DNA of 64,000 nucleotides, taken from NCBI RefSeq assembly GCF_028885415.1, contig NZ_CP118527.1, positions 6,324,001-6,388,000 on the forward strand. The letters run 5' to 3'. Both the position numbers and the translations under genes were made by a program. Source of the DNA: Streptomyces coeruleorubidus (GTDB lineage Bacteria > Actinomycetota > Actinomycetes > Streptomycetales > Streptomycetaceae). The notes beneath the pieces are model-generated. The model had not been told where the DNA came from, ran no database searches, and saw nothing but the letters and a program-made list of their open reading frames with translations. Positions 39,436 to 63,944 of the stretch are shown in pieces (position 1 is the first letter of the stretch; each line of letters starts with the position of its first letter).

Positions 39436-39492
39436 ATGGCGTTGTGTCGCTTTTCAGGGATTGCATGCCTGCGAAGGAGGACGTCGAGGTCC

Positions 39493-42248: not shown

Positions 42249-42278
42249 CATCCGTCTTCGTCAGCTACGAGGTGAGGG

Positions 42279-42510: not shown

Positions 42511-42567
42511 TCCGGTGGGGAAGGGAAGGGGAACAGGGCGGGAAGATGGCAGTACACAGTGGCGTGT

Positions 42568-43584: not shown

Positions 43585-43737
43585 CGCGCGCCGGGTAGTT
43601 ATGTTTTCCTTCTGGGCGAGGCGAAGACACGGGGGGACGGGACGCGGGATCGAGCATGCTTGGTGCATGTGCTCCGAGAGATGATCTACTCTCGCGGCGA
43701 CGTGTGTCCCATCTCATCGCTGACGGGGGAGGGTAAG

Positions 43738-46767: not shown

Positions 46768-46892
46768 GTCCTGCGTGCCGGGCGGCCCGCGACGCGGGGA
46801 TCGGGCGGGTGTCCAGAGGGGAACGGGCCGGGAAGGCGAATCGGGAGCATCAGCGGAGTCGAAAAGGCCTCCCTTTCCAAAGGAGCTCACTC

Positions 46893-47066: not shown

Positions 47067-47199
47067 GCAGGTGGGCCGCAACCGCTGGTCGCGGCCCGCT
47101 CAGTAGGTGACTTCCGGGGCGAGCCTCGCGATTTCCGCGCGCCGCGATCCGGTTCGGGACAGCGAGGCTGCTGCCCAATTCTTATCGAGGGGGAACACA

Positions 47200-47913: not shown

Positions 47914-47917
47914 CCTC

Positions 47918-48991: not shown

Positions 48992-48992
48992 G

Positions 48993-50147
48993 TCAGTGCT
49001 CTTCCTGTCCGATGGAGTCGAACGCGGCGGCCATGATCTGGAGCATCACCTCGGAGGTCCCTGCCGACAGCGTGAGCCCCGGCGCCTCTCGGTAGGCGGA
49101 GTCCAGGGTCACAGCCGCCCTGGTGCGGTTCGCCCGCTGCTCGGGGCCGGGGATGTCGGCGGCCCACGCCGCGACGCTCTGGGCGAGTTCGCTGCTGTGG
49201 TACTTGGCGACGGCGGTCGAGACCTGATCGACCTGGTCCGACGCAAGGCCGGTGAGCACCTCCCAGGCGAGGACGTGGTCGGCCGTCAGCGCGCCGTGCC
49301 AGCGGCCGATCTGCTCGAGGTGGGCGTCGTGCGGGGAGTGCGGGTCGCAGTCGATGAGTGCGTCCAGCGCGGCATCGAGCCAGTGCTCCGCCTTGAGGTA
49401 GTAGTCAAGACCGGTGCGTTCGATGGCCAGTGCCTCGTTGAGCAGCGGCCACCCCTCGTCGCGCGGACCGAGGAGGTCGCCGCCCGACACCGGAACCGAG
49501 TCGAGGTCCACCCGGTGGAAGTGCTCGTCGCCGACGCCGGGTATCAGCGACACCGTCACACCAGGTGCGCCCATGTCGACCAGGAACAGACTGATTCCCT
49601 GGTACTTCCCGGCACTCGGCGTCGTACGGGCCGCGCACAGTCCGAGGTCGACGAACCGTGTCTTGAGGCTGAACACCTTCGTGCCGGTGATGCGGTAGCC
49701 GTCACCGTCCGGTTCGGCCACGGCCCGCAGTGCACCGAGATCCGATCCCGCGTCCGGTTCGGTGTAGAGCACCGAGGCGAAACTCTCACCGCGGGCCAGT
49801 GCGGGCAGGTACCGCCGCTTCTGCTCGTCGCTGCCCGCCATCAGCAGGAACTGGCCGACGATCTGGATGGTGTTGACGTGCAGGGTGTCCGGCACTCCCG
49901 CGCGCACCAGTTCCTCGGCGACGATCGCGGCATCGGTGAGCGGACGCCCTTGTCCGCCGAACTCGGCGGGCCAGTGCACGGCGAGCAGTCCCAGCTCTCC
50001 GAGCAGGCGGTAGAGCGGGCGCGCGTCCGGCTCGACACCGTCCGCGCCCGTGGCCTGTGCCGCCGCGGCACGCACCTCGGCGGAGCGCAGCGTCGTGCGC
50101 ACGCCCGCCCGGAACCGCTGTTGTTCCTCGGTGAATCCGAACCGCAT
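48993..50147 (-). CDS. acyl-CoA dehydrogenase family protein (probable flavin-binding partner)
   Basis: 384 residues. HWPAEFGGQGRPLTDAAIVAEEL, SVLYTEPDAGSDLGALRAVAE (FAD/substrate signature), TGTKVFSLKT and ALAIERTGLDYYL are conserved. The C-terminal motif reads LTLSAGTSEVMLQI, so the position of the classical Glu in YEGTxEI is Ala; the base may lie elsewhere as in the isovaleryl/long-chain type. It probably desaturates an acyl or aminoacyl thioester during metabolite assembly. It starts 10 nt after the NRPS stop. Confidence 0.85.
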   Translation of the reverse strand: MRFGFTEEQQRFRAGVRTTLRSAEVRAAAAQATGADGVEPDARPLYRLLGELGLLAVHWPAEFGGQGRPLTDAAIVAEELVRAGVPDTLHVNTIQIVGQFLLMAGSDEQKRRYLPALARGESFASVLYTEPDAGSDLGALRAVAEPDGDGYRITGTKVFSLKTRFVDLGLCAARTTPSAGKYQGISLFLVDMGAPGVTVSLIPGVGDEHFHRVDLDSVPVSGGDLLGPRDEGWPLLNEALAIERTGLDYYLKAEHWLDAALDALIDCDPHSPHDAHLEQIGRWHGALTADHVLAWEVLTGLASDQVDQVSTAVAKYHSSELAQSVAAWAADIPGPEQRANRTRAAVTLDSAYREAPGLTLSAGTSEVMLQIMAAAFDSIGQEEH

Positions 50148-50157
50148 GTACGTCTCC

Positions 50158-53100
50158 TCAAGACGCGAGCGTCTCTTCGATCGCTGCGACGACCCGGCTC
50201 AGCGCCGGTTCTGTGAACAGGGTGTAGTGGTCGCCGGGCACGCTTTCGGCCCGGAACGGACCCGTGCACACCGTCCGCCACTGCTCTTCCATGGCGATGT
50301 GCGGCGAGGCGGTGAGCACGGTGACCGGTCCGCCGTACGGGCCCGGTGGCCGGTACTCCTGCATCGACAGGGCGGAGGACCGGAAGGTCTCGAAGCGGGA
50401 GGTCAACTCCTGCTCGGTGAGCTCCAGTTCGACGCCGAGACCGGTCAGTGTCTCCCTGACGTCGGCCACGCCGGCGGCCGGGTCGTCAAGGACCGCGCGC
50501 ACCGCCTGGCCGTCGCGTCCCGTCAGCCTGGCGACGTCGTGCACGAACCGCTGCCGCACCGTCGGCTCGTCGAGTGGGACGGTGTCCTCGTCGTAGGCGG
50601 CGTCCAGCAGAACGACCGGCGGCCGTTCTCCGGTCTTCTGCTCGATCTGCCGGGCGACCTCGAAGGCGAGCACACCGCCGTAGGACCAGCCGGCCAGGCA
50701 ACACGACGTCGGCAGGCCGCTCTCGATCAGGGCCTGCGCGATCCTGGCGGCGGTCGCTGCCATCGCGTCCCGCGGGGCCACGGCGGCGTCCCGTGGATCG
50801 GCGGCGAAACCGGCCACACCGATGTCCTCGCGCAGTGCCCTGGCCAACGGTATGTAGCAGAACAGCTCACCGCCTGACGGGTGCAGCAGGATCACCTGCG
50901 CCGGGCCCGACGAACGCATCACCACCGGTGCCCGGTCCCCACCCGGCGCGGCAGTCCGGGCGGGGTCCTGCCCGGACAGGCTCGCCAGCGCGTCGAGCGG
51001 ATCGTCGTCATCGCGCTGTGCGGCGCGGACGGTGTCGATGGTGGCGGCCAGGTGTGCGACGGTGGGCGAGACGAAGAAGTCGCCGAGGGCGATCTCCACC
51101 CCGAACCTGCGGTTGATCGCCGACATCAGCTGAACGGCCTGGAGGCTGTTGCCGCCCGCCAGGAAGAAGTCGTCGCGCACGCCGAGCCGGTCGTCGCGCA
51201 GCAGGGGAGCGAGCACGTCGCGCAGCAGCCGCCGTTCCGTCGCGGTGAGCGACTCGTCGCTGTACCCCTCGCCCGCACGGCTCAGGTCCGGCGCGGGCAG
51301 CCGGCGCCAGTCGACCTTGCCGCTGCTGGTGAGCGGCAGCTCGTCGAGGACCACGAAGTACGCCGGGATCATGTACGACGGCAGGAGCGTGCCCAGATGC
51401 TCGCGCACCGCCGGCACCTGCTGTTCGGTGACCCCGGTCAGATAGCCGACGAGGTGCTTGTCCCCGTTGTCGTCGGTCCACGCCTGTACGCTGACCGGAC
51501 CGATTCCGTCGAAGCCGGTCAACGCCGACTCCACCTCGCCCAGTTCGATCCGCAGTCCGCGGATCTTGACCTGCTGGTCGATCCGGCCGAGGAAGACAAG
51601 CCGTCCGTCGGCCAGTCGCTTCACCAGGTCTCCGGTCCGGTACAGCCGTCCACCGGGCGCGGTGCCGAACGGGTCGGTGATGAACTTCTCCGCGGTCAGC
51701 TCCTCCCGGTTGAGGTAGCCGCGCGCCAGCCCGCCACCGCCGATCACCAGTTCACCCGGCACACCGACCGGCACCTGGCGCAGGTCGCGGTCCAGCACGT
51801 GCGCCACGTGGTTGGCCATGGGCAGGCCGATCGGCGGCGAGGCGTCCCAGGTGCCGGGACACTCCTCCACGATCATCGTCACCGTGCACTCGGTCGGCCC
51901 GTAGCCGTTGAACAGCCGCCTGCCCGGGTTCCACCGGTTCACCAGCTCACCGCTGAACGCCTCGCCGCCGACGAACGCGATCCGCAGGTCGGTGAACTTC
52001 TCGGGCGCCAGCAGCGGCATGACGGTCGGGGGCAGGTCGATCACGGTGATGCCGGCCTGTTCCATCAGCGCCTGGAGCCGGTCGATGGACAGCCGTTCGT
52101 CGTCGGTCGCCAGGCACAGGCGCGCTCCGGTCAGCAGCGCCGAGAACGTCTCGAACACGGAGACGTCGAAGGTCACCGAAGCGAACCCGAGCACCCGGTC
52201 GGCCGGTGTCAGGTCGAACAGGTCCCGCGTGGAGTCGATGAAGTTGACCACGCCGCGGTGTTCGAGCAGCACACCCTTCGGCTTGCCGGTGCTGCCGGAG
52301 GTGTAGATGACGTACGCGACGTCGCCGGGCTTCGCCGCGAGCGGCGGATTGTGGCCGGGCATAGTCGCCAGTTCCCCGCGGACGTCGTCCAGCGTCACGA
52401 CGGGCGCGTCGACCTCGCTCACGGTCTTGCCGGCCTCGGCGTGTGCGATCACCGCGCGCACACCCGCGTCGGCGGCGATCTCCGCGACCCGCGCGGGGGG
52501 ATGCGCCGTGTCGAGCGGCACATAGGCCGCGCCGGTCTTCAGCACCGCGAGGATCGCGGTCGTCAGATCCAGGTTCCTGCGCAGACACAGGCCGACCCGC
52601 GTGCCCGGCTCGACGCCGCGCTCGCGCAGCAGTGCGGCGAGCCGGTTCGCACGGGCGTTGAGTTCGGCGTAGCTGGTCTCGACGCCGGAGACGACGACCG
52701 CCACGCTGTCCGGGGACTCCTCGACGCGCGCCTCGAACTCCTGAACGACGGTGGACTCGCGTATCGGGCGCATCGGTCCCTTGCCGACCTCGGCCAGGAA
52801 CTCCTTGTCCGCCGGGCTCAGCACCTCGGCGGCGGACAACGGAGCGTCGGGGGCCGCCGTCAAGGTGGTGAGCAGTCCGTCGTAGTGCCGGGCGAACCTG
52901 GCGATGCTCTCGGCGTCGAACAGGTCGGTGTTGAACTCGATGGCGAGGCGTGCGTCGGCGCCGGGAGCCGCCTGCTCCGTCAGGTTCCAGCTCATGTCGA
53001 ACCGGGAGGTGCCGGTCCGGACGGCCTCCTGTGAGGTGGCGATGCCGGGCAGGCCGGTCGTGGTGGCCGCGTTCTCCACGCCGAACACGATCTGGAAGAT

Positions 53101-54258
53101 CGGTGAGCGTGAGGGGTCGACGACCGGATCCACCGCGTCGACCAGCTTGTCGAACGGCAGCCCGCCCTGCTCGCAGGCCTCGGACGACACACGCCTGACC
53201 CGCTGCACCAACTCGCGGAAGGTCGGGTCGCCGGAGACGTCCGCGCGCAGCACCCGCATGTCGCTGAAGAGCCCGATCACCGATGACACGGCGTCGTGCC
53301 CCCGGTTCGCATCCGGCGAGCCGATCACCAGGTCGTCCAGGCCGCAGTAGCGGTGCAGCAGGGTGAAGAACGCGGCAACGAGGACGTCGAACGGGCTCGC
53401 GCCCTCCTTCCGGGCCAGTTCCCCCGCCCGCTTCAGGCCCTGGTGCCCGACGGTGAAGCTGCCGCTCCCGCCTGCGAAGGTCCGTGTGTCACCACGGGGC
53501 CGGTCGGTCGGGAACTCCAGCACCTCGACGCCCGCCAGCTTGTCCCGCCAGTACGCGGCCAGCCTGTCCAGGTCGCCGCCGCGCAGTCGCCGGCGTTGCC
53601 ACACCGTGTAGTCCGGGTACTGCACGGGAAGGTCGGGCAGCCGCGGTGCGTCGCCGTCGCGCAGCGACCGGTAGCACTCGGCGAGTTCACGGATCAGCAC
53701 GTTGCGCGACCAGGCGTCGCACACGACGTGGGGTACGTCGAGCAGGAAGAGATGGTCGTCCGGCGCCACCCTGACCAGCGCCGCGCGCCACACCGGCGTC
53801 CTGGTCAGGTCGAACGGTGCCGCGCTCCGCCTCTCCACCAGGGCCCGCGCGGCGGCGAGCCGCTGCTCGTGGTCGTCGCCTTCGGCCTCGATCAGCGGCA
53901 GCTCGATGGGGACCTCGGGCACGACCACCTGCATCGGGCCGCCCTCGCGCTCCACGATCACGGTCCGCAGCGCGTCGTGCCGGGCCACGACCGCGGCCAG
54001 CGCCGAGCGCAACACGTGCGCGTCCAGATCGCCCCGCAGGCGCAGGCACAGCGGCATCCCGGCGACAGCACCGTCCGGCGCCGGGCGGTCGAGGAACCTC
54101 AGGCTCTCCTGCGCGTGCGACAGCGGTACCGGCCCCGTGTCACCGCGCGGCGTCGGGCCTCGCCTCGCCGCGGCGTGTGCCTGCTCCCTCAGCCGCGCGA
54201 GGAACCGCGCGCGGCGCTCCGCGGGCAGCGCGGCCAGGCGCTGGGTCATGTCGGTCAC
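50158..54258 (-). CDS. single-module non-ribosomal peptide synthetase, C-A-T-TE
   Basis: 1366 residues; GTG overlaps the upstream stop. The condensation domain (about 40-470) has VPHVVCDAW in place of HHxxxDG: catalytic H177 and D181 kept, first His is Pro, Gly is Ala. The adenylation domain (about 500-1000) has YTSGSTGKPKG, FNGYGPTE, YRTGDL, GRIDQQVKIRG and SGKVDWRRL. The eight-to-ten residue code aligned by eye to GrsA is D-V-F-D-F-G-G-V-T-K, which I cannot assign. Carrier domain: FLAGGNSLQA. Thioesterase: AGWSYGGVLAF with DAAYDED and PGDHYTLF. The TE implies product release here. No MbtH protein is in the window. Confidence 0.95.
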   Translation of the reverse strand: MTDMTQRLAALPAERRARFLARLREQAHAAARRGPTPRGDTGPVPLSHAQESLRFLDRPAPDGAVAGMPLCLRLRGDLDAHVLRSALAAVVARHDALRTVIVEREGGPMQVVVPEVPIELPLIEAEGDDHEQRLAAARALVERRSAAPFDLTRTPVWRAALVRVAPDDHLFLLDVPHVVCDAWSRNVLIRELAECYRSLRDGDAPRLPDLPVQYPDYTVWQRRRLRGGDLDRLAAYWRDKLAGVEVLEFPTDRPRGDTRTFAGGSGSFTVGHQGLKRAGELARKEGASPFDVLVAAFFTLLHRYCGLDDLVIGSPDANRGHDAVSSVIGLFSDMRVLRADVSGDPTFRELVQRVRRVSSEACEQGGLPFDKLVDAVDPVVDPSRSPIFQIVFGVENAATTTGLPGIATSQEAVRTGTSRFDMSWNLTEQAAPGADARLAIEFNTDLFDAESIARFARHYDGLLTTLTAAPDAPLSAAEVLSPADKEFLAEVGKGPMRPIRESTVVQEFEARVEESPDSVAVVVSGVETSYAELNARANRLAALLRERGVEPGTRVGLCLRRNLDLTTAILAVLKTGAAYVPLDTAHPPARVAEIAADAGVRAVIAHAEAGKTVSEVDAPVVTLDDVRGELATMPGHNPPLAAKPGDVAYVIYTSGSTGKPKGVLLEHRGVVNFIDSTRDLFDLTPADRVLGFASVTFDVSVFETFSALLTGARLCLATDDERLSIDRLQALMEQAGITVIDLPPTVMPLLAPEKFTDLRIAFVGGEAFSGELVNRWNPGRRLFNGYGPTECTVTMIVEECPGTWDASPPIGLPMANHVAHVLDRDLRQVPVGVPGELVIGGGGLARGYLNREELTAEKFITDPFGTAPGGRLYRTGDLVKRLADGRLVFLGRIDQQVKIRGLRIELGEVESALTGFDGIGPVSVQAWTDDNGDKHLVGYLTGVTEQQVPAVREHLGTLLPSYMIPAYFVVLDELPLTSSGKVDWRRLPAPDLSRAGEGYSDESLTATERRLLRDVLAPLLRDDRLGVRDDFFLAGGNSLQAVQLMSAINRRFGVEIALGDFFVSPTVAHLAATIDTVRAAQRDDDDPLDALASLSGQDPARTAAPGGDRAPVVMRSSGPAQVILLHPSGGELFCYIPLARALREDIGVAGFAADPRDAAVAPRDAMAATAARIAQALIESGLPTSCCLAGWSYGGVLAFEVARQIEQKTGERPPVVLLDAAYDEDTVPLDEPTVRQRFVHDVARLTGRDGQAVRAVLDDPAAGVADVRETLTGLGVELELTEQELTSRFETFRSSALSMQEYRPPGPYGGPVTVLTASPHIAMEEQWRTVCTGPFRAESVPGDHYTLFTEPALSRVVAAIEETLAS

Positions 54259-55379
54259 CTCAGACTCCTTACGGGCTGCGGAGCGTCGATCACCCGCTCG
54301 TCCGAGCGCACGGGCAGGTGTGCCAACTCCGAGATGGCGATGGTCAGCACGTCGATGCCACGCATGTAGTCCGACAGCACGATGTGCTCGTCGTCGGCGT
54401 GATCGAGACTGCTGTCGCCCGGGCCGTAGGTCGCCATCGGGATGTCCCAGACCTCGGCGAGGGTGTTCATGTCCGAGGTCGCCGTCTTCACCACCAGCCG
54501 TGGCCGGGCGTGCAGTTGCCGGATACCGGACACCAGCGCGCGCACCGCCGGGTCGGCCCGGCCCACCCGGCAGGCCGCCACCGAGTTCAGCACTTCGAGG
54601 TCGCCGGCCGGCAGCCTCTCACGCAGCCCGCGCACCAGCTCGTCGACGTCGAACCCCGGTGGGATGCGGACGCTGAGGTCCGCCGTCGCCGTCGTCAGAT
54701 CGGCGTTGAGCTGGCACAAAGTCGCGCCCGGCTGGTCGAACACGCCATGGCTCGCGTCCGGCCCGAGCAGATCGACCAGCGCGTCCCAGCAGGCGACGGC
54801 CAGTTCGGACGCCTTCGGTGCCGGGTTGCTCGGGTGCGTGGCAGGACACTTGACGGTGTAGCGCAGGTCGAGCTTGCCCTTGTAACCGAGCACGACGCTC
54901 GACCAGCCGCTCGGTTCGCCGATGATCAGCGCGTCCGGCCGGTCATGGGTGGCTCGGATCGCCATCGCCCCACGGGAGCGCGGAGTCTCCTCCTCGACGA
55001 CGCCGATCACCACGATCCGGCCGGGGAAGTCCACCGCGCCTGCCGCGGCACAGATCATCGCCGCGAGCGGTCCCTTGGCGTCCACCGCGCCGCGGCCGTA
55101 GAGCTTGCCGTCCTCGGAGCGGACCGGGAACTGGCCCGAGACGGTGTCCATGTGCCCCAGCAGCATCAGGGTCGGGCCCACGCCGCGCTCGATCACGCCG
55201 ATCACATTGCCCACGCCGTCGATGTGCGCCTGATAGCCCAGGTCCGCCATCGCTTCGGCCAAGTAGTCGGCCAGCGCACGCTCTTGGTAGGAGGAGGAGG
55301 GGATCTCCAGCATCTTGCGCAGCAGTCCGGCGGCGTACGTCTCGGTGACGTTGCCCGACGAAGTGAACGCCCAGTTCAT
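54255..55379 (-). CDS. lysK: LysK-like carrier-protein amino acid hydrolase (M20 family)
   Basis: 374 residues from ATG 55379, overlapping lysX by 4 nt. M20 metallopeptidase: LMLLGHMDTVSGQFPV, YGRGAVDAKGPLAAMI and VIGVVEEETPRSRGA bind two metals, and IIGEPSGWSSVVLGYKGKL and SSLDHADDEHI follow. The close match of GRGAVDAKGPLAAM to Thermus LysK suggests it cleaves the finished amino acid from the C-terminal Glu of the LysW carrier. Its place in a LysX-NRPS operon fits release of the building block. Confidence 0.9.
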   Translation of the reverse strand: MNWAFTSSGNVTETYAAGLLRKMLEIPSSSYQERALADYLAEAMADLGYQAHIDGVGNVIGVIERGVGPTLMLLGHMDTVSGQFPVRSEDGKLYGRGAVDAKGPLAAMICAAAGAVDFPGRIVVIGVVEEETPRSRGAMAIRATHDRPDALIIGEPSGWSSVVLGYKGKLDLRYTVKCPATHPSNPAPKASELAVACWDALVDLLGPDASHGVFDQPGATLCQLNADLTTATADLSVRIPPGFDVDELVRGLRERLPAGDLEVLNSVAACRVGRADPAVRALVSGIRQLHARPRLVVKTATSDMNTLAEVWDIPMATYGPGDSSLDHADDEHIVLSDYMRGIDVLTIAISELAHLPVRSDERVIDAPQPVRSLR

Positions 55380-56254
55380 CGTTGCGCTCGTTCCAGTAGA
55401 TGGTCGACGATGTGGTCCGCGACATCGACCCGGTCGCCGAGTGCGGATTGGAAACCGGTGAACTCGACCCGGTGATTGACCTCCAGGACCAGCAGCCGGC
55501 CGTCGCGGTCCTCGATCAGATCGACACCGGCGATGTCGGCGCCGACGGCGGCGGCCGCGTCCAGGGAGAGCTTGGTGATCTCCGGCGTCACCTCGCACGG
55601 CCGGGTCTGCCCGCCGAGCGCCACATTGGTACGCAGGGACTCGCCGGTCCGGTAGACGGCGCCCAGCACCTGACCACCGACCACGATCACCCTGATGTCC
55701 CGGTCGGGCTTGTCGATCAGCTCCTGCACATACCCGAGGTGCGACTGCGGGCCGGGCAGCGCGGCGGCGTACTCGAGCACACCTTCCGCACTGGCGCGGT
55801 CGGGCAGTTGAACCACCAGCCGGCCCCACGAGCCGACCAGCGGTTTGATCAGCGCCGGGTAGCCGATGGAGTCCAGGGCGGCCAGCGCGGCCTGCGGAGT
55901 GAGGGCGAGCGCGGTGCGCGGTGTCGGCACCCAGGCCGCCTCCAAGGCCATGGTGGTGCGCCACTTGTCGCCGCACACCTCGGTCGCGTCCGCGCTGTTG
56001 ACCACTTCGACTCCCGCCGCGGTGAGACAGCGGGCCGCGTACGCCGCGCGGAACTGGCCGATCTCCCGGTTCAGCGCGAGACTCCAGGGCAGGTCACGCT
56101 GACCGGCGAGGAACCATTGCCGACGGGTGTCGACGTGGTCGAAGGGGACACCGCGCCGGTCGAATGCGTCGAACAGCCTTTTCTCGTCCGCACCGACCCG
56201 GCTGGCGAGTATGGCGATCCTGCAGTCACCTGGGCGCTCTGGTGTCGCTGACAC
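55376..56254 (-). CDS. lysX: LysX-like carrier-protein:amino acid ligase (ATP-grasp)
   Basis: 292 residues, GTG start with GGAGGT upstream. RimK/LysX ATP-grasp fold with LysX-specific blocks EVCGDKWRTTMAL, IKPLVGSWGRLVVQL, YVQELIDKPDRDIRVIVVGG, TNVALGGQTRPCEVTPE and VLEVNHRVEFTGF. It couples the alpha-amino group of glutamate or 2-aminoadipate to the gamma-carboxyl of the carrier's last residue. It is first in the leftward operon, divergent from the sulfotransferase across a regulatory region repeated at 63517-63770. Confidence 0.92.
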   Translation of the reverse strand: MSATPERPGDCRIAILASRVGADEKRLFDAFDRRGVPFDHVDTRRQWFLAGQRDLPWSLALNREIGQFRAAYAARCLTAAGVEVVNSADATEVCGDKWRTTMALEAAWVPTPRTALALTPQAALAALDSIGYPALIKPLVGSWGRLVVQLPDRASAEGVLEYAAALPGPQSHLGYVQELIDKPDRDIRVIVVGGQVLGAVYRTGESLRTNVALGGQTRPCEVTPEITKLSLDAAAAVGADIAGVDLIEDRDGRLLVLEVNHRVEFTGFQSALGDRVDVADHIVDHLLERAQR

Positions 56255-56504
56255 GTGACCTCCGTATGAGAAGCACTGATTGGCCGGACGGCATAACCGG
56301 CCTGCCGCGTGAAAAAGAAACTACGAGCATGCCGGCACCGTGCGCGTCCGCGACAAGTTCATGCCCGGGGACGCATCGTGTTGACTTTCATCCCCGGTGA
56401 CTGCGAAGCCTGCTTACCCGTCCCCGGCGGCCGCTGTGTCACTCTTGACCGGATTCGAATAACCGCCACAAGAGTTCACTGTCGCCCAAGAAGAGGGGGA
56501 AATC
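56255..56504. promoter_or_regulatory. divergent control region, copy A of a cluster-specific duplicated leader
   Basis: This 250-nt space between lysX (left) and the sulfotransferase (right) aligns by eye along most of its length with 63517-63770. The best block is GTCCGCGACAAGTTCAT (56346-56362), identical to the reverse strand of 63661-63677. It is flanked by matching TACGA boxes, a TGAC-TTTC stretch and a later GTGTCAC(T/C)CTTGA block (around 56436-56448). On the left flank TCGTA..TTC..TTC..CGCG..TATG..GTCCG is shared. It is a shared promoter/operator or leader. Confidence 0.7.
56340..56384 (+). CDS. possible leader peptide, 14 codons (VRVRDKFMPGDASC)
   Basis: GTG at 56340, TGA at 56382-56384. 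The counterpart on the minus strand at 63639-63683 reads MRVRDKFIHGDTLR. The stop lies 120 nt before the sulfotransferase start here and 122 nt before the ATP-grasp start there. Several differences in the first ten codons are at third positions, which suggests but does not prove coding. No good Shine-Dalgarno; TACGAG twelve nt upstream could be a -10 box. Confidence 0.35.
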   Translation: MRVRDKFMPGDASC

Positions 56505-57236
56505 GTGGGACACACATCGGAGCGGATACCGGTGCTCGCTTTGTGGAGCGCGCCGCGCTGCCGCTCCACCGCGTTCGCGCGGATGATGACGGAGCGCGAC
56601 GACCGCGTCGTCGTGCACGAGCCGTTCTCCCGGGTGGTCGACTTCGGTGAGGTGGAGGTCGGCGACCGGGTCGCGCACACCGAGCAGGACGTGCTCGCGG
56701 CGCTGCGTGCCATCGCGGCGCACAAGCCGGTGTTCTTCAAGGACACCACGGACTTCCACTACCCGGCGCTGCTCGCCGACGAGGCCTTCCTCTCGGCCGC
56801 GACGCACACCTTCATCATCCGCGACCCGGCCGAGGCCATCGCCTCGCACCACGCGCTCAACCCGGACCTCGGCCGCGACGAGATCGGCTTCGCCCGGTTG
56901 CACGAGATCTTCACCGCCGTACAGGCCGCCACCGGCACCACGCCGGTCGTGATCGACTCCGACGACCTGCTCGACCGGCCGGCCGAGACCGTGCGGGCGT
57001 ACTGCGCGGCGGTGGGCATCCCCTTCGTTCCGGACGCGCTGAGCTGGAAGCCGGGCATGCGGTCGGAATGGCAGTCGACCAGCAAGTGGCACAAGTCGAC
57101 CAGTGAGACCACCGGCTTCACGCGGAGCAAGAGCGGCGGAGCCGAGGCGGTCGCGGCGGACCCGGTGCTGCGGGCCTACCGCGACTACCACCTGCCGTAC
57201 TACGAGAAGCTGCGCGCCGTCGCGCTCCAGCCGTGA
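56505..57236 (+). CDS. sulfotransferase-family protein
   Basis: 243 residues from GTG 56505, with AGAGGGGG upstream. PAPS-binding 5'-phosphosulfate loop is LWSAPRCRSTAFARMM, and the 3'-phosphate motif is THTFIIRDPAEAIASHH. The C-terminal WKPGMRSEW and YYEKLRAVAL are typical of this sulfotransferase subgroup. It would sulfate a hydroxyl. In azinomycin-type pathways a sulfotransferase activates the hydroxyl whose elimination closes an aziridine, and the rest of this cluster fits that chemistry. Confidence 0.85.
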   Translation: MGHTSERIPVLALWSAPRCRSTAFARMMTERDDRVVVHEPFSRVVDFGEVEVGDRVAHTEQDVLAALRAIAAHKPVFFKDTTDFHYPALLADEAFLSAATHTFIIRDPAEAIASHHALNPDLGRDEIGFARLHEIFTAVQAATGTTPVVIDSDDLLDRPAETVRAYCAAVGIPFVPDALSWKPGMRSEWQSTSKWHKSTSETTGFTRSKSGGAEAVAADPVLRAYRDYHLPYYEKLRAVALQP

Positions 57237-57268
57237 AGCCGTGACCGGTCGGCCGGAATAGTCGCCAG

Positions 57269-57295
57269 GATTACCCGGCGCATACCCCGGTAATC
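57269..57295. promoter_or_regulatory. inverted repeat GATTACC-N13-GGTAATC
   Basis: A perfect 7-bp dyad (57269-57275 and 57289-57295) in the 124-nt space between the sulfotransferase and the next gene. It could be an operator for the downstream operon or a weak attenuator. Confidence 0.35.
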
Positions 57296-57360
57296 GCGGG
57301 ACGGACGAACAGCGCGATCCAGCGGTCTAGGTTTGAAATGCAAAACTGCGCTTCAGTGAG

Positions 57361-57957
57361 GTGGATCACTTGACGGGCATTTCGGTGTCCTCCGCCAGAA
57401 CCCGGCTGTGCGATCCGGTCGACATATCCGGCCATCGCAACAACACGGCCATCTCCGCGGCGACGGAGACCAAGGCGGGGGCCTTCAATGTATGGGGAAA
57501 CTCGTTTGCGGCCGAATACCTGCCCGAAGGCAAGAGCCTCGTCCACGTGGACGGTGTTCCCTTCGAGTTTCCTCCGGTCTGCGACGGACCGGACAATGTC
57601 CGCTGTGCCGGACAGTTCATCCGCGTCCCCGAGGGCCGCTACGACTGGATCCATGTCCTGGCGGCGTCCGAACGGCGCTGCGAGGAGACCGTCGAGCTGA
57701 ACTTCGCCGACGGCTCGGTCGACGCGGAACCGCTGCGGATCTCCGACTTCTGGTCGGCGCCCGCGTGGTTCGGTGAGGTCAAGGCGTTCGAGAGCCTCGT
57801 CATGCACTACCCGCACCACGTGCAACGAGGCGTTCCGGCGGTGATGTGGGCGCAGCGCGTGCCGGTCACCCGGCGCGCCGGCCTGACCGGCATCCTGCTG
57901 CCCCGCAACGTCGCGGTGCATGTCTTCGCGGTCACCCTCCAGCGGACGGAGCCCTGA
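57361..57957 (+). CDS. unknown 195-198-residue protein, candidate partner of the sulfotransferase
   Basis: Start at GTG 57361 or, with the better ribosome site GAGGTGG, at TTG 57370. It looks beta-rich: AFNVWGNSFAAEYLPEG, LVHVDGVPFEFPPV, AGQFIRVPEGRYDWIHVLAAS, TVELNFADGS and VPAVMWAQRVPVTR. There is no signal peptide or catalytic motif that I recognise. Its size and position after a sulfotransferase recall AziU3 of the azinomycin pathway, needed for aziridine formation; this is from memory of gene context, not a sequence comparison. Confidence 0.7.
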   Translation: MDHLTGISVSSARTRLCDPVDISGHRNNTAISAATETKAGAFNVWGNSFAAEYLPEGKSLVHVDGVPFEFPPVCDGPDNVRCAGQFIRVPEGRYDWIHVLAASERRCEETVELNFADGSVDAEPLRISDFWSAPAWFGEVKAFESLVMHYPHHVQRGVPAVMWAQRVPVTRRAGLTGILLPRNVAVHVFAVTLQRTEP

Positions 57958-57958
57958 C

Positions 57959-59011
57959 ATGACCGTCGACGTGACGGCACGGACGTACATGATCACCGGA
58001 CCGGAACCCGAGTGGTGGTACCGCGACCTCGTCAGCTGCCTTCAGTCCACGTTCGGTTCACTCCTGATACGGGAGGGCGCCGACCCGCTGTCCGTGCTCG
58101 GCGCGGGCTGGCGGTTCCTGCACCTGCCGGGCGACGTCAGGTCCGAGGAGTTCTACTACCCCTGCCCCCCGGACGAGTCCGGCGGCGCAGACCTCGGTGC
58201 CGCGCTGGCCCCGCACCACGCGCTGCGCGCGCGCTGGTGGCAGCCCGCCGACGAGGACGACGTGTGGCGGGAGGTGCGCGAGACGCTGGCCGACGACCGG
58301 CTCGTCATCGCCGCCGTGGACAACTACCACCTGCCGTTCCGGCCCGCGTACGGGGACGTGCACGCCGCGCACCTCGTGGTGGTCTACGGCCTGGACGAGA
58401 CCCGCGGGGTGGTCTACGTCTCGGACGCGATGCCGCCCGCCTTCCGCGGTGCCGTCCCGATCGAGGAGTTCCTGCGGAGCTGGGGTTCGGCGAACCCGAC
58501 CGACGTCCAGGACGCGTTCTTCAGCGACGCACGGATCGGCAGACGCTGTCTCGACGTCCGCCTCGACGCCCCGCCCGCGCCCCTGACGCCCGAACTGCTC
58601 GGCGGCTTCCTGCGCACCGACGTCGACGGCTTCACCACGGCCGGCTCGGCCCGTACCGGTCTCGCCGGATACGACGAGTTCGCCGCGGAACTCCTCGACC
58701 GGTGCCGGGCCTCGGACGCCGGCGCGCTGCGCGAGCTGTATCCGTTCGGCTGGGGCATGCAGGCGCAGGCGTCACTCCACGGTGAACTGCTGCGCCGCTG
58801 CGGCCGCCAGTGGGACGATCCGGCGCTCGCCGGAGCGGGACGCGCGGTCGAGGCCGTCGCGCACGCGTGGACCGGACTGCGGTTCACCGGTGCGCACGGG
58901 CTCGAGGACCCGCGCGCGGTCGCACCCGACATCGCGCACCACGCGACGCTGCTGCGCGGCGCGTACGCGCGTGCGGTGGACGCCGTCGGCGCGGCGGCGG
59001 CGCGGCTGTGA
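57959..59011 (+). CDS. BtrH N-terminal/DUF4872 family acyltransferase-like protein
   Basis: 350 residues; ATG two nt after the previous stop. The cysteine-protease-like BtrH fold has [20 protein letters not shown] (C27 as nucleophile), [39 protein letters not shown] (candidate His) and [10 protein letters not shown] (Asp). A helical DUF4872-like C-terminus follows. In butirosin synthesis BtrH moves an aminoacyl side chain from a carrier protein to an amine. Here it may transfer from the LysW carrier or the NRPS carrier to an amine acceptor. Confidence 0.85.
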
Positions 59012-59055
59012 CCGCGCAGGCATCGACCACCGTGACCGGAGTGGAGTGGAGAGTG

Positions 59056-60351
59056 ATGAGCAAGCTGGCAGCGTTCGGCGGTACGGCGACCGTACCGAGG
59101 GACCGGCGCCGTGTGCAGTGGCCGTTGGTCGAGGAGGAGGACCGCAAGGCCGTCCTCGACGCGCTCGACGGCGCAAGACTGGTGTCCGATACGGACGGTG
59201 TGAATCCGGTGTCCGTACTGGAGGAGAACTGGGCCCGGCGCTTCGGCTTCGAGCACTGCGTCGCGGTGTCCAACGGCACCGCGGCCCTGGCCCTCGCGCT
59301 GGCCGCGCTCGGCGTCGGACCGGGGGACGAGGTGATCGTGCCCGCGCTCAGCTTCATCGCCACCGGGCTCGCACCGGTGCACCAGATGGCCGTTCCCGTG
59401 TTCGCCGACATCGACCCGGTCACCTTCAACATCGATCCGGACGACGTGGAGCGCCGGATCACGGACCGGACCAAGGCGATCATCCCCGTGCACCTGCACG
59501 GCGCGCCCGCCGACATGGACCGGATCACCGAGATCGCGCGCAAGCACGGCATCGCGGTGATCGAGGACGCCGCACAGGCTCCCGGGGCGACCCACCGCGG
59601 GCGGCCGGTCGGCGGCATCGGCGACGCGGGTGCCTTCAGCCTCCAGGTCAGCAAGAACATTCCGACCTGTGGTGAAGGCGGCCTGCTGGTGACCCGCGAC
59701 GCCGGGCTGGCCGAGGCGATGCGCAGGGGCCGGCAGTTCGGCGAGGTGATCGAGAGCGGTCGCGAGCGCGACTACGTGTCCTACGGTCTGGGCTGGAACT
59801 ACAAGATGAACGCCCTCCAGGCCGCGTTCACCGACGCACAGCTCGCCCGGTTCGACGGGTACGAGCGCGCGCGGCAGCACAACGTCACCGAGTTCCTCGC
59901 GCGGCTCTCGCAGCTGCCCGGCCTGCAAGTGCCGACCGCGCTGCCGGACACCACCCACGCCTGGCACATCCTGCGGTTCCGGTTCGACCCGGCCGCGTTC
60001 GGTCTGGACGGGGTGCGACCGGAGGCTCTGCGCTCGGCTCTGCGGCGACTGCTGCGCGCCGAGGGCGTACCGATGTCGCAGTACCAGCTCATGCCGCTGC
60101 CCGACCAGAAGGTGTTCGTGGACCGCGTCGGCTTCGGCTCGGGCTACCCGTGGTCCGTGACCGGTGCGCCCGCAGCGGTCGCGGGCGAGGACTACCCGGT
60201 GACCCGCGCGGTCATCGCCGACTCCCTGACCATCCAGAAGCGCCACCTCCACCCGGGGGCGGGCGAACTGCTCGGCCTGTACGCGGACGCCTTCGAAAAG
60301 GTGTGGGCGAACAGGGACATGGTGGCCACGCTCGCGAAGGCGGCGTCATGA
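59056..60351 (+). CDS. DegT/DnrJ/EryC1-family PLP aminotransferase
   Basis: 431 residues from ATG 59056 ([16 protein letters not shown]), with GGAGAG upstream; a GTG at 59008 overlapping the previous stop is a possible longer start. [24 protein letters not shown] (cofactor phosphate; core [11 protein letters not shown]), [10 protein letters not shown] and [13 protein letters not shown] with D171 lead to the Schiff-base K200 in [15 protein letters not shown]. It would transaminate the ketone made by the transketolase on the carrier-bound substrate. It overlaps the next gene by 4 nt. Confidence 0.92.
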
Positions 60352-61190
60352 CCGCCACCCAGGTCCTGGAGCGGGACACCCTGGACTCGGTCGCCGCACG
60401 CATCCGCTCGCACGTCGTCGACATGTGCGCGGGGCCCGAGGGCGGCCATCTCGGCGGCGCGTTCTCCTGTGCCGACGTGCTCGCCGCGCTGTACTTCTCG
60501 GTACTGAACGTGGACCCGCAGCGGCCGGACGACCCGGATCGCGACCGCTTCCTGCTCAGCAAGGGCCACGCCGCCGTCGGCCTCTACGCGACGCTGGCCG
60601 AACGGGGCTTCTTCCCGGTCGAGGAACTCACCGGATACGGACGCCCGGGCAGCAGGCTGATGGGCCACCCGGTGCGCGCGGTGCCCGGTGTGGAGATGCC
60701 GACCGGATCGCTCGGCCACGGACTCGCCCTGGGCTGCGGATTCGCGCTGGCCGCCCGGTACGCCGGCCGTGACGCGCGCAGCTTCGTACTGCTCGGCGAC
60801 GGCGAGCTCCAGGAGGGCTCGGTGTGGGAGGCGGCCATCGCGGCCGCGTCGCTGCGCCTGGACCGGCTGGTGGCGGTGGTGGACCGCAACGGACTGCAGC
60901 TGACCGGCTCCACCGAGGGCATCGCACCGATGGAACCCCTGGCCGACCGCTGGCGCAGCTTCGGCTGGGCGGTCCGCGACGTGGACGGGCACGACCCGAG
61001 CCAACTGGCGGACCATCTCGGCGCCACGCCGTGGGAACCGGGCAAGCCGAGCGTGCTGATCGCCCGCACGGTCAAGGGCCAGGGGCTCCCGTTCCTCGCC
61101 GGCCGCAGTGCCAGCCACTACGTGACGCTGTCGCCGCGCAACCACGCACGGGCGGTCCGCGCCCTACGAGCCACGGAGGCCACCGGATGA
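60348..61190 (+). CDS. transketolase, N-terminal subunit
   Basis: 280 residues, ATGA overlap with the aminotransferase. Thiamine-diphosphate domain: [62 protein letters not shown] (TGSLGHGL core) and the [14 protein letters not shown]...DRNGLQ metal motif near 148-180. It forms a split transketolase with the next gene. In carrier-protein pathways to DADH such a pair adds a two-carbon ketol unit to the carrier-bound glutamate semialdehyde. Confidence 0.92.
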
Positions 61191-62155
61191 GCCGCGCGAC
61201 CCGGGAGGCGTACCGGGACAGCCTGCTTCCCCTGCTGAAGCAGCATCCCGAGCTGATGTGCCTGGACTCCGACACCGGTCTGTTCAACGCCGAGTACGCC
61301 GCGACGGCCGGCGACCAGTACCTCAACCTCGGTATCGCCGAGCACAACTTGATGGGCATGGCCGCCGGGATGGCCGCCTGCGGGCGGGTCCCGTTCGTCA
61401 ACACGATGGCCGCCTTCGCCACCTCCCGGGCACTGGAAGCGATCAAGATCGACATCGCCTACAACCGGTTGCCGGTCCGCATCATGGCCACCCACGGCGG
61501 TCTCGCCGCGGGCCACCTCGGTCCGACGCACCAGGCGCTGGAAGACCTCGCCGTGATGCGGGTACTGCCCGGCATGACCGTGGTGGTGCCTGCCGACGCC
61601 GCCGCCACGGAAGCGTTCGTCGAGCAGAGCCTGAACCTGTCCGGACCGCTGTACGTCCGGCTCGGCCGCAAGCCGTCACCGCCGCTTCCCGCAGCCCCGC
61701 CACCGGTCATCGGGCAGGCACAGACGCTGCGGCAGGGCGGCGACGTGGTGCTCGCGAGCTGCGGTCCGTACCCGGTGCTCGCCTGCCTCGCCGCGGCGGA
61801 CGTCCTCGCCGGGCAAGGCATCGAGGCCACCGTGCTGAACATGCACACCCTGCGGCCGTTCGACGCGGAGACGCTGGTGGCCGCGGCCCGGCCGGCCTCG
61901 CTCGTGGTGACGCTGGAAGAGCACTGGCGCAGCGGCGGCCTCGGCGGCGCGGTGACCGAGACCCTGGCGGAGGCGGCGCCCACCCGGGTGCTGCGGCTGG
62001 GCATGCCGGATCAGTTCGTCGACGAGGTGGGCAACCAGGAACATCTCGTCGCGCATTACGACCTCACCGCGGAGCGGGTCGTGAAGACGGTCCGTACCGC
62101 CCTCGACACGGCGGCCCGTTCCGGGCGCCCCGATCGGGAAGTCGTCACCACATAG
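61187..62155 (+). CDS. transketolase, C-terminal subunit
   Basis: 322 residues, ATGA overlap. Pyrimidine-binding domain with LNLGIAEHNLMGMAAGMAACG (catalytic Glu in IAEHN), PFVNTMAAFATSRALEAI, ATHGGLAAGHLGPTHQALEDLAVMR (HLGPTHQALED core). The C-terminal domain includes DVVLASCGPYPVLACLAAADVL and VLNMHTLRPFDAETL, and EEHWRSGGLGGAV. It completes the split enzyme; two hairpins follow. Confidence 0.92.
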   Translation: MSRATREAYRDSLLPLLKQHPELMCLDSDTGLFNAEYAATAGDQYLNLGIAEHNLMGMAAGMAACGRVPFVNTMAAFATSRALEAIKIDIAYNRLPVRIMATHGGLAAGHLGPTHQALEDLAVMRVLPGMTVVVPADAAATEAFVEQSLNLSGPLYVRLGRKPSPPLPAAPPPVIGQAQTLRQGGDVVLASCGPYPVLACLAAADVLAGQGIEATVLNMHTLRPFDAETLVAAARPASLVVTLEEHWRSGGLGGAVTETLAEAAPTRVLRLGMPDQFVDEVGNQEHLVAHYDLTAERVVKTVRTALDTAARSGRPDREVVTT

Positions 62156-62163
62156 CTGACGTC

Positions 62164-62189
62164 ACGGGTCGGGCGATTGCCCGACCCGT
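62164..62189. terminator. terminator hairpin after the transketolase operon
   Basis: ACGGGTCGGGC (62164-62174), loop GATT, GCCCGACCCGT (62179-62189), an 11-bp perfect stem 8 nt after the stop. Confidence 0.75.
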
Positions 62190-62211
62190 ACGTGCATGCC
62201 GAAACCACATC

Positions 62212-62265
62212 GAGCCTCTTTCATCCCCGCGGGAGTCGTTGTTCACGCGGGGATGAAAGAGGCTC
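62212..62265. terminator. 20-bp perfect inverted repeat between convergent genes
   Basis: GAGCCTCTTTCATCCCCGCG (62212-62231), 14-nt loop, then its exact complement at 62246-62265. It is probably a bidirectional terminator for the transketolase operon and the convergent ATP-grasp gene. Confidence 0.75.
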
Positions 62266-62307
62266 ACACGTCTCTGTCGATCGGATCACCTGGGGGCGGT
62301 GCCGGCG

Positions 62308-63516
62308 TCACGTCTGTGGTTGTGCCGTGATGCGGTAATCGAGCGTGCTGAGGACGGTCGCCACGCGGGCACGCAACTGGCTCACGGAATCGGCGGTGAC
62401 CGTGAAACCGAGGAAGAAGTTCTCCTGCTCCAGGCTGCTGACCTGGTAGCCGTTGATGACGTCCGCGTTGACCACACCGGGTAGTTCACGCAAGTCGTCC
62501 TCGCCGGTGCTGATCTCGACGGTGCCGAGCTCGTCGGCCTCCACGTAGACCAGGCCGGTGATCGGCTGGTCGCCGACCGGGTCCACCTGGTCCGGTGGCA
62601 TGGTGAATTCGCCCAGCGACATCGAGATGAACGCCTCGATCGGGTCGATCCCGCCGGGTTCGTGGATCGCCGGGAAATGCATGCCGCGACCAGGTCGTGG
62701 ATTGATCTCCACGAGCTCCGTCCGGCCGTCCTCGGTGCTCCGGCCCTCGACGTGCAGCCAGAGCTGGTCGAGGCGGAGGTCGGCGCAGAGCGTGCTGATC
62801 GCCTCGCTCAGAGCACGCACACCGTCACGCACGTGGTCCTGCTGAGGCGGATGGAGATTGATCCCCGCGTCGTGGTGCCTGCTTTCGTCGAGGTCGGGCT
62901 TCTCGCCGGCCAGGACCGGATGGAAGCGGCCGGCGACGACGGGGCCGTCCACGGTGAACTCGGTGCCGGGCAGGTACTCCTCGACGATCAACCGGGTGTC
63001 GCCGAGGCCGAGTTCGGTCAGATAGCGCTCGTAGGCGAGGAGCTCGGCAGGCTCGTCCACCCGGCGAACCAGCCGCGACGCCCCGGACTGATCCGCGGGC
63101 TTGACGATGGCGGGGAAGAAGTCCACCTCCGCGGGATCCCCGGAGAAGCGCATGCCGGACAGCCCCAGGGTCCGCATGCGCTCTCGGACCAGCGTCTTGC
63201 TGAGCAGCACATTGCGGCCGGCGTCAGCACCCGGAAGACCGTAGTGCGTGGCTATGGCGATCTGCCAGGGCATCAACGCTTCGAGCATGTTGACGACAGC
63301 GATGGGGTCGATGCCACGGCGGTCGAGCCGGGTGGTCAGCGCGGGCAGGTTCTCGCTGTCCCAGTCCATCAGGACGTGGTCATCGCATGTGTCGCGGTTG
63401 CGGTCGTCAGGAAGATCGGAGATCAGTACCGGACGCAAACCGCGGGCTCGCAGCCGTGCGACAGCGGGGGCCACGCCGCCGGCATTCCATTTGGAGAGAA
63501 TAAGTACGGATTTCAA
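62308..63516 (-). CDS. ATP-grasp carboxylate-amine ligase
   Basis: 402 residues from a TTG at 63516, chosen because GGAGG sits seven nt upstream and the protein then begins LKSVLILSKWNAGGVAPAVARL; the frame is open to 63555. ATP-grasp blocks are LLSKTLVRERMRTLGL, FFPAIVKPADQSGASRLVRRV, RLIVEEYLPGTEFTVDG and LVEINPRPGRGMHFPAI (metal Glu/Asn). It is unlike LysX and closer to amino acid/peptide ligases. It may join the carrier-derived amino acid to another residue outside the NRPS. Its leader repeats that of the sulfotransferase. Confidence 0.88.
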   Translation of the reverse strand: MKSVLILSKWNAGGVAPAVARLRARGLRPVLISDLPDDRNRDTCDDHVLMDWDSENLPALTTRLDRRGIDPIAVVNMLEALMPWQIAIATHYGLPGADAGRNVLLSKTLVRERMRTLGLSGMRFSGDPAEVDFFPAIVKPADQSGASRLVRRVDEPAELLAYERYLTELGLGDTRLIVEEYLPGTEFTVDGPVVAGRFHPVLAGEKPDLDESRHHDAGINLHPPQQDHVRDGVRALSEAISTLCADLRLDQLWLHVEGRSTEDGRTELVEINPRPGRGMHFPAIHEPGGIDPIEAFISMSLGEFTMPPDQVDPVGDQPITGLVYVEADELGTVEISTGEDDLRELPGVVNADVINGYQVSSLEQENFFLGFTVTADSVSQLRARVATVLSTLDYRITAQPQT

Positions 63517-63770
63517 GCCGCGACCTCCAGAACTGTATTTCAGGGCTTGCACCAAGAAAAATCCGGACCAGCTTCAAGGGTGACACCGACCAGGGGCGCG
63601 CGGGAGTAAGCGAGATGATCAGCCTCGGGAGAGAAAGGTCAGCGCAATGTGTCGCCGTGAATGAACTTGTCGCGGACCCGCATGACGTGGGCGCGGTCGT
63701 ACCTTCCTATTCGACGCGCCCTCGATATGGCGGTCCGCTCCGGAACAACCGATTGAAAGGAAACCGTCAC
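63517..63770. promoter_or_regulatory. divergent control region, copy B of the duplicated leader
   Basis: A 254-nt space between the ATP-grasp ligase (leftward) and lysW (rightward). Read on the minus strand it parallels 56255-56504. ATGAACTTGTCGCGGAC (63661-63677) is the reverse of the 17-nt block at 56346. The distances to the flanking starts are also alike (87 and 122 nt here, 85 and 120 nt in copy A, counted from the short ORF). Confidence 0.7.
63639..63683 (-). CDS. possible leader peptide, 14 codons (MRVRDKFIHGDTLR)
   Basis: ATG at 63683, TGA at 63641-63639, paralogous to VRVRDKFMPGDASC at 56340-56384. TACGAC lies twelve nt before the start, as TACGAG does in copy A. The frame is also open upstream, and the preceding codons still resemble copy A (YDRAHV against YEHAGT), so the true start, if any, is unsure. 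Confidence 0.35.
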   Translation of the reverse strand: MRVRDKFIHGDTLR

Positions 63771-63944
63771 ATGACCACCATGCAGGCCTGCCCGGAGTGC
63801 GAGGAGCAGGTACAGATCAGCGATTCGGTGCGACTCAACGAGATTCTGGAGTGCGTGGGCTGCCGAAGCGAACTGGAGATCATGGCGCTGAGCCCCACGG
63901 TGCTCGCCCTCGCGCCGGAGGTCGAGGAGGACTGGGGCGAGTAG
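63771..63944 (+). CDS. lysW: LysW-type amino-group carrier protein
   Basis: 57 residues from ATG 63771, with GAAAGGA upstream. MTTMQACPECEEQVQISD carries the first zinc CxxC; the second is ECVGCRSELEIM. An acidic stretch ends in the family's invariant EDWGE, whose terminal Glu side chain is the attachment point for the amino group of the substrate. Thermus LysW has the same size and ending. It shields the amino group and presents the intermediate to acidic-surface-recognising enzymes. In Streptomyces, such copies outside lysine/arginine loci serve specialised metabolism. Confidence 0.93.
   Translation: MTTMQACPECEEQVQISDSVRLNEILECVGCRSELEIMALSPTVLALAPEVEEDWGE

Follow-up and report, generated by a model that had tools for sequence, protein, structure and literature searches.

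We analyzed a 64,000-base stretch of DNA from Streptomyces coeruleorubidus (the window; bases 6324001-6388000 of a 9,411,092-base single-contig genome, assembly GCF_028885415.1) together with the next 34 kb, for which window coordinates are continued beyond 64000 (the extended scale); the first 6,000 bases of this added stretch match the end of the window. The right part of the window carries genes for a LysW-type amino-group carrier protein (AmCP) and its partner enzymes, a nonribosomal peptide synthetase (NRPS), and homologs of the azinomycin enzymes AziU2 and AziU3. The full cluster measures ≈54 kb, from 42442 in the window to about 96131 on the extended scale, with ≈32 kb lying past the window end. 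A preliminary description of the window had given the cluster as 54255..63944, an extent that omits nearly all of the NRPS and both of the acyl-CoA dehydrogenases beside it. The genes that it named (LysW ending in EDWGE, LysX, LysK, the NRPS, a split transketolase, an aminotransferase, a BtrH-like protein, the two acyl-CoA dehydrogenases, and a second ATP-grasp ligase) are all present together according to profile and Pfam matches, along with two that it did not mention, a sulfotransferase and an AziU2 homolog. The central genes of the window are as follows.

47918..48991, minus strand: acyl-CoA dehydrogenase, last gene of its operon (Pfam, C-terminal domain match only)
48993..50147, minus strand: three-domain acyl-CoA dehydrogenase (Pfam)
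50158..54258, minus strand: NRPS, C-A-T-TE (Pfam)
54255..55379, minus strand: LysK-like hydrolase, which would free the carrier-bound amino acid; start set by overlap (NF003367, 350.9 bits, cut-off 363; TIGR01902, 290.9 bits, cut-off 163.1)
55376..56254, minus strand: LysX-like ATP-grasp ligase, amino acid to carrier (TIGR02144, 277.3 bits, cut-off 275.6)
56505..57236, plus strand: sulfotransferase (Pfam PF19798, E 3e-19)
57361..57957, plus strand: AziU2 homolog (PDB 8gs1_A, E 5.4e-49; 7wuw_A, E 6.3e-49; no Pfam match)
57959..59011, plus strand: AziU3 homolog, aziridine-forming enzyme (PDB 7wuw_C, AziU3, E 4.9e-74; Pfam BtrH_N)
59023..60351, plus strand: DegT-type aminotransferase, start approximate (Pfam, E 8.2e-85)
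60348..61190, plus strand: transketolase N-terminal half, start approximate (Pfam Transketolase_N)
61187..62155, plus strand: transketolase C-terminal half, start approximate (Pfam Transket_pyr and Transketolase_C)
62308..63555, minus strand: ATP-grasp ligase A (Pfam; 79% identical in WAC 01529)
63780..63944, plus strand: LysW-type carrier, 54 aa from the chosen ATG, C terminus EDWGE (PF21344; sequence)

LysX, LysK, the NRPS, and the two acyl-CoA dehydrogenases form a five-gene operon on the minus strand. LysX and LysK overlap by four bases (ATGA), as do LysK and the NRPS (GTGA), and gaps of about 10 bases and of one base separate the remaining genes. The LysK open reading frame (ORF) as listed (54255-55976) is too long; starting instead at the ATG at 55379 gives a four-base overlap with the LysX stop. 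The carrier protein matches PF21344 with an E value of 1.3e-11 (44.4 bits; cut-off 27) and falls under the cut-offs of two NCBIfam LysW models; it keeps the four cysteines of the zinc ribbon in CPEC and CVGC motifs, and the EDWGE codons lie at 63927-63944. LysY and LysZ, which the preliminary description had suggested seeking beyond 64 kb, were both found 27-29 kb past the window, at 91292-92386 and 92409-93281, respectively, with CysD and CysN beside them (93838-96131). LysW, LysX, LysZ, LysY, and LysK, the genes that mark an amino-group-carrier pathway, all lie in one cluster.

By sequence, the BtrH-like protein and the ORF preceding it are homologs of AziU3 and AziU2, the aziridine synthase pair of azinomycin biosynthesis. 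A role for the former as a butirosin-type acyltransferase was set aside in view of its match to the AziU3 structure. A 2025 review (PMC12559475) describes AziU3/U2 in one passage as functionally an aziridine synthase acting by sulfate displacement, and part of PMC9570651 describes how, for azinomycin, a derivative of 2,6-diamino-5,7-dihydroxyheptanoic acid (DADH) is sulfated and the sulfate displaced by the neighboring amine. The sulfotransferase beside AziU2/AziU3 and the CysD/CysN genes near LysY/LysZ fit this chemistry. We propose that the sulfotransferase, which has no PDB relative at an E value of 0.001, would sulfate the carrier-made amino acid before the aziridine is closed.

When species genomes were scanned with an alignment of AziU3, 46 loci were found, several of them truncated by contig ends or by the 10-kb flank; AziU3 occurs in 31 of 394 family genomes. 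AziU2 lies directly upstream of AziU3 in all 46 loci. The aminotransferase is present at 43 of these, the transketolase halves at 43 and 42, the sulfotransferase, LysX, and LysK at 41 each, LysW at 38, LysY at 37, LysZ at 36, an NRPS match at 35, and the longer acyl-CoA dehydrogenase at 27. The gene identities, the operon, and this conserved linkage are established here.

The adenylation (A) domain of the NRPS carries the pocket code DVFDFGGVT, read from an alignment in which nine positions, excluding the tenth (lysine), were located by GrsA motif landmarks and not by structural alignment. The code recurs exactly at 32 of the 35 AziU3 loci with an alignable A domain (the exceptions being L032, L038, and L039). 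Eighteen of these 32, at 61-86% NRPS identity, carry little weight; at the other 14 (L020, L025, L026, L034, L036, L037, L041-L043, and L046-L050), the code is kept despite an identity of 36-55%. Other A domains at some of the same loci, of similar identity, have different codes (e.g., DAWFLGHVV and DVWHLSLVH). Because the loci that share the code share the aziridine genes and not, within their 20 kb, the cupin-MetRS gene of hydrazone pathways, we infer that the carrier-made amino acid is the substrate of this A domain, although a shared partner such as valine could also be what the code selects. DVFDFGGVT may thus serve as a signature when mining for carrier-made amino acids.

Between LysW and LysY, past the window end, sits a gene set for making hydrazinoacetate and converting it to a hydrazone (extended scale; family scans unless stated; listed with two neighbors, the AlaDH/PNT-like and saccharopine-dehydrogenase-like genes).

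79871: acyl-CoA dehydrogenase
81078: AlaDH/PNT-like gene
82099: saccharopine-dehydrogenase-like gene
ORF from 83135: lysine N-hydroxylase (Pfam Lys_Orn_oxgnase)
84694: DAO-type flavin oxidase (Pfam)
ending at 87743: cupin-MetRS hydrazine synthetase, 661 aa (Pfam)
ending at 89257: adenylase
89247-89510: small carrier (position, sequence, and 80-90% conservation in five relatives)
89507: GNAT acetyltransferase
ORF 90073-91179: C45 peptidase

The lysine N-hydroxylase, oxidase, and cupin-MetRS genes are consecutive within 83135-87743, in the order of Spb38, Spb39, and Spb40, the enzymes that make hydrazinoacetate; a section of a 2024 review (PMC11705231) calls the later steps uncharacterized. PMC13266690 describes s56-p1 as a hydrazone-bearing dipeptide from an AmCP cluster, of formula C16H26N6O9S. 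AmCP chemistry and a hydrazone gene set in one cluster point to the s56-p1 kind, and we consider it highly probable that the window genes are the left part of one s56-p1-family cluster joining an AmCP-made azabicycle to hydrazone chemistry. By analogy, the product would most likely be s56-p1 or a congener. The preliminary description had not recognized the combination of genes, thereby implying novelty; with the BtrH-like protein read as AziU3 and the whole set plus the hydrazone cassette as s56-p1 type, the LysW cluster can now be placed in a known family. The kinship it saw to vazabitide, azinomycin, and ficellomycin stands for the azabicycle half.

Every reaction of the pathway that we propose is drawn from published relatives. 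LysX would couple glutamate to LysW at its C-terminal glutamate, LysZ and LysY would convert the LysW-bound glutamate to a carrier-bound semialdehyde, and the split transketolase would add two carbons to it. The DegT aminotransferase would then add a second amine to give carrier-bound DADH, which LysK would free from the carrier. The sulfotransferase, supplied by CysD/CysN, would sulfate DADH, AziU2/AziU3 would expel the sulfate to close the aziridine, and the NRPS would load the resulting aziridine amino acid; as a guess, the two acyl-CoA dehydrogenases may oxidize the NRPS-bound amino acid, enabling a second ring closure. In parallel, lysine would be hydroxylated on nitrogen, the cupin-MetRS hydrazine synthetase would couple the product to glycine, and cleavage would give hydrazinoacetate; this would be succinylated, loaded on the small carrier, and both oxidized and desuccinylated (the order is disputed in print) to yield a hydrazonoacetyl unit. 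Joining the azabicycle and hydrazone pieces would fall to the ATP-grasp ligases and the NRPS.

Both gene sets occur in one region in five genomes, namely, our own, WAC 01529, TBY4, S. bambusae, and CBMA156 (G213). The joint set lies on one 73,355-base contig in S. bambusae and on a 41-kb contig in CBMA156; in S. spiramenti, it is on two contigs. When four named genomes were tested for cupin-MetRS, WAC 01529, CBMA156, and TBY4 matched at 86-89% and S. purpureus at only 34%; the CBMA156 match (G213:C146:11756-13732) has one internal TGA, which may be just the terminal stop. The C45 peptidase of the s56-p1 producer, compared with six more genomes, is matched at 91% in S. bambusae and S. spiramenti and at 61% in S. 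niger, with the other three unmatched. LysY, LysZ, CysD, and CysN are located past the hydrazone genes in our genome, WAC 01529, and CBMA156, so the two halves interleave. LysY appears twice in the WAC 01529 cluster (L085-L087, joined 19347-20441 and 45245-46333), 88% and 90% identical to ours. The TBY4 cluster (L088-L091, joined 21619-23016 and 40578-56558) has a glutamine-synthetase-like gene, a P450, an MFS gene, and an NRPS block not seen in our cluster, which may decorate the product.

Several observations weigh against a single cluster of the s56-p1 kind. The aziridine-hydrazone linkage is not obligatory: a close cupin-MetRS occurs in 2 of the 31 AziU3-bearing genomes (our own at 100% and CBMA156 at 88%), and of the remaining 29, two have matches at 37% and the other 27 lack any at an E value of 1e-100. 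None of the 46 loci has cupin-MetRS within its 20 kb; in L007, L014, and L031, it is present at a greater distance or on a separate contig, as is the C45 gene in L018 and L024. The aziridine pair is widespread, with the hydrazone half found in a minority. In TBY4 and S. bambusae, LysY and LysZ, like CysD and CysN, are on the azabicycle side, not past the hydrazone genes, and ATP-grasp ligase A and the AlaDH/PNT-like and saccharopine-dehydrogenase-like genes are extra in our cluster, being unmatched in the stretches of those two genomes examined. LysK scores 12 bits under the NF003367 equivalog cut-off, and the small carrier was missed by a PF00550 scan of the genome.

Some of these points would favor two independent neighboring clusters, one for a ficellomycin- or vazabitide-like azabicycle and a separate one for a hydrazone or diazo product: the 29 genomes without a close hydrazine synthetase suggest that the azabicycle genes work alone, and in TBY4, besides the placement of LysY/LysZ, the P450/NRPS block separates the two sets. 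We regard this as very unlikely given that LysY, LysZ, and CysD/CysN lie beyond the hydrazone genes in three genomes, that the two sets stay together in five genomes while their order differs, and that s56-p1 itself unites AmCP chemistry and a hydrazone. We likewise see only a slim chance that the cluster makes a plain product of the ficellomycin/vazabitide type, its hydrazone genes being silent or otherwise used. Where visible, the core genes running from the acyl-CoA dehydrogenases to LysW are indeed 62-94% identical at the 21 loci with AziU3 above 75% (L005-L024 and L031), except at L020 (NRPS 36% and dehydrogenase 44% only), and our AziU3 and the S. ficellus protein share 83% identity, but the hydrazone genes are open frames with good conservation (the nearest cupin-MetRS relatives, P0122-P0148, are at 82-93%), and amidinotransferase (guanidine-transfer) families have no match among the cluster genes scanned. 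The reading that the LysW genes serve the organism's own lysine or arginine synthesis and have no tie to the NRPS has a negligible chance of being right: although this LysW is the sole PF21344 match in the 9.41-Mb genome and the LysX/LysK models are those of primary lysine biosynthesis, a second ArgC (399.6 bits) at 1903734 with an amino-acid kinase nearby at 1901774, lysA at 6744267 (490.8 bits against a cut-off of 297.9), the NRPS gene overlapping LysK, and the adjoining AziU2/U3 genes contradict it. The preliminary description had read the set as specialized metabolism, to be abandoned if these were the only arginine or lysine carrier genes or if the NRPS was not co-expressed with them; the reading is supported, since ArgC, kinase, and lysA genes lie elsewhere, and the GTGA overlap within a five-gene operon suggests joint expression.

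For the s56-p1-family cluster that we favor, the comparison with s56-p1 rests on one protein of the producer strain SoC090715LN-17, the C45 peptidase A0A1L7NQC9 (P0276, annotated as an acyltransferase), which is 78% identical to ours. In a C45 tree of 65 rows (our own, P0244-P0304, P0320, WAC 01529, and TBY4) from 861 matches, the producer protein groups with TBY4, S. bambusae, S. griseoluteus, and three others with support of 100/100, all 90.7-92.3% identical to it. Our C45 peptidase falls outside this group; WAC 01529 and others accompany it in a fan, resolved only in part, that also contains the producer group. An AziU3 tree was built from 26 rows (24 different) with known hydrazone status, leaving out the 14 more distant of the 31 genomes and scoring S. 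niger as without the cassette despite its 61% C45 relative. Its six hydrazone-bearing rows form two groups, our own with WAC 01529 and CBMA156, and TBY4 with S. bambusae and S. spiramenti.

These comparisons, too, supply points against the s56-p1 assignment. The hydrazone label requires two changes on the AziU3 tree, of which well-supported branches force at least one, and a single origin is possible. Judging from the trees, our lineage is distinct from that of s56-p1. The s56-p1 strain name is absent among the best 120 of 368 AziU3 relatives and the best 120 of 939 cupin-MetRS relatives (in which names are abbreviated), and the presence of AziU2/U3 in the s56-p1 cluster is an extrapolation from TBY4 and S. 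bambusae. In favor of the assignment, the cupin-MetRS here shares 84% identity with that of Catenulispora acidiphila, the species that a passage of PMC7347517 names as closest homolog of Spb38-40; against it, Catenulispora acidiphila is not among the best 120 of the 368 AziU3 relatives. We thus view the cluster as a separate lineage within the s56-p1 kind, with a few extra genes, and not as a new kind of system. Within the open-licence literature, we found no paper combining azabicyclo, LysW, and sulfotransferase, and none of the titles listed was devoted to this cluster family.

The genes between LysW and the hydrazone set are as follows (extended scale; family scans unless stated).

64483-65748, minus strand: ATP-grasp ligase
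65959-67362, plus strand: ATP-grasp ligase
67523: GntB-like desaturase-family protein (NF041365, 316.9 bits, under the cut-off of 380)
68580: O-acetylhomoserine sulfhydrylase-like enzyme (TIGR01326, 526.5 bits, cut-off 495.1)
69908: C26 peptidase
70652: MetX-like protein (NF001209, 383.8 bits, cut-off 331; under the cut-offs of other MetX models)
71877: aminotransferase nearest CobD (under the CobD cut-off)
73434, minus strand: KASIII-like protein (L002:15156-16372, minus strand)
between the KASIII-like gene and 78042: alpha/beta hydrolase, MFS transporter, and SDR
78042-79532: gene without a family match

The KASIII-like gene is followed by a carrier domain at 73156-73350 (minus strand) and is conserved in the five relatives compared. 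An 86-aa ORF at 72925-73185 (plus strand) is probably not a gene; it has no Pfam match, is unmatched in WAC 01529 and TBY4, and is opposed by the carrier domain.

MetX, C26, sulfhydrylase, and GntB together look like a transferable unit. Two further genomes of the genus carry it at 54-80% identity (L102:5717-10229 and L103:5739-10747), in 20-kb stretches that contain no other gene of the cluster; in G379, it lies more than 7 Mb from AziU3 with an NRPS match nearby, and in G242, it is on a different contig from AziU3. The draft genome CBMA156 has no GntB-like match, so the module is not universal. The gene content, a γ-hydroxylase, an O-acetyltransferase, and a PLP (pyridoxal phosphate) γ-replacement enzyme, suggests formation of a γ-substituted amino acid. 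Such enzymes, the GntB-like one being a diiron hydroxylase, might contribute a hydroxylated, cystathionine-like γ-substituted sulfur amino acid to a three-part assembly, joined with the aziridine and hydrazone pieces by the ATP-grasp ligases, an idea that we consider doubtful. In a weak calculation with no structure behind it, the azabicyclic amino acid (C7H12N2O3), cystathionine, and hydrazonoacetic acid less two waters give C16H26N6O7S, the published s56-p1 formula minus two oxygens; a rival sum, an N-acetylcysteine adduct plus glycine, is closer, at one oxygen short. The module offers a concrete target for the steps after hydrazinoacetate.

Three further genes make up the left end of the cluster.

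42442..43584, plus strand: LAL_C2-type protein, the left-most gene found conserved in relatives (Pfam LAL_C2; 77% TBY4, 82% WAC 01529)
43660..46767, plus strand: SARP-type regulator with BTAD, NB-ARC, and TPR domains (Pfam; 80% TBY4; 88-89% WAC 01529, in two pieces split by stretch ends)
47107..47913, plus strand: LuxR-type response regulator (Pfam; 93% WAC 01529, 87% TBY4)

The three genes adjoining the cluster (39100-42248) are unmatched in the WAC 01529 and TBY4 stretches, the latter extending just 1.5 kb beyond the LAL gene. ORFs at 61258-62256 and 53817-55475 (both plus strand) have no Pfam match, overlie better-supported genes, and were dropped. Elsewhere in the window, 19192-41000 appears to be an exopolysaccharide region (Wzz/tyrosine-kinase-like, glycosyltransferase, flippase-like, Wzy-like, and epimerase genes), and an ARAGORN tRNA call at 1571-1656, whose anticodon has four bases (cctg) and to which no amino acid is assigned, is probably a false positive.

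Among known systems, the cluster most resembles that of s56-p1, with which it shares Spb38/39/40-type hydrazinoacetate genes and, from the account in PMC9303977, AmCP-made DADH, also used in vazabitide A. The nearest stand-ins for the producer, TBY4 and S. bambusae, have almost the same genes as our cluster; gene order differs, and the three extra genes noted above are unmatched in the stretches examined. The spb cluster is given as BGC0001764 in PMC11705231 and printed as BGC0001746 in PMC11851569, a portion of which lists 12 same-function genes across its own cluster and those of ficellomycin and s56-p1; a genome-mining passage in PMC13061610 relates 2 of 129 hydrazone clusters to s56-p1. 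The azinomycin pathway, as outlined in PMC9570651, shares the AziU2/AziU3 pair, split transketolase, aminotransferase, kinase, and reductase but not the hydrazone cassette, and no iterative type I polyketide synthase of the azinomycin naphthoate kind is among the cluster genes scanned with Pfam, only the KASIII-like protein. Vazabitide A and ficellomycin are alike through DADH and AziU3, respectively; our cluster adds the hydrazone cassette and the GntB/MetX/sulfhydrylase module. Unlike its azaserine counterpart, our cupin-MetRS has no C-terminal carrier domain: it has no PF00550 match, and since that model also misses the small carrier, its length of 661 aa against ≈740-770 aa in carrier-bearing relatives is the better evidence. 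In other respects, the hydrazone half resembles the azaserine (PMC10445470), dob (PMC13061610), and triacsin systems as these sources describe them in part, sharing the lysine N-hydroxylase, oxidase, cupin-MetRS, succinyltransferase, adenylase, carrier, C45 peptidase (61% identical to S. fragilis and 75% to Glycomyces harbinensis), and acyl-CoA dehydrogenase, and, with azaserine and triacsin, saccharopine dehydrogenases.

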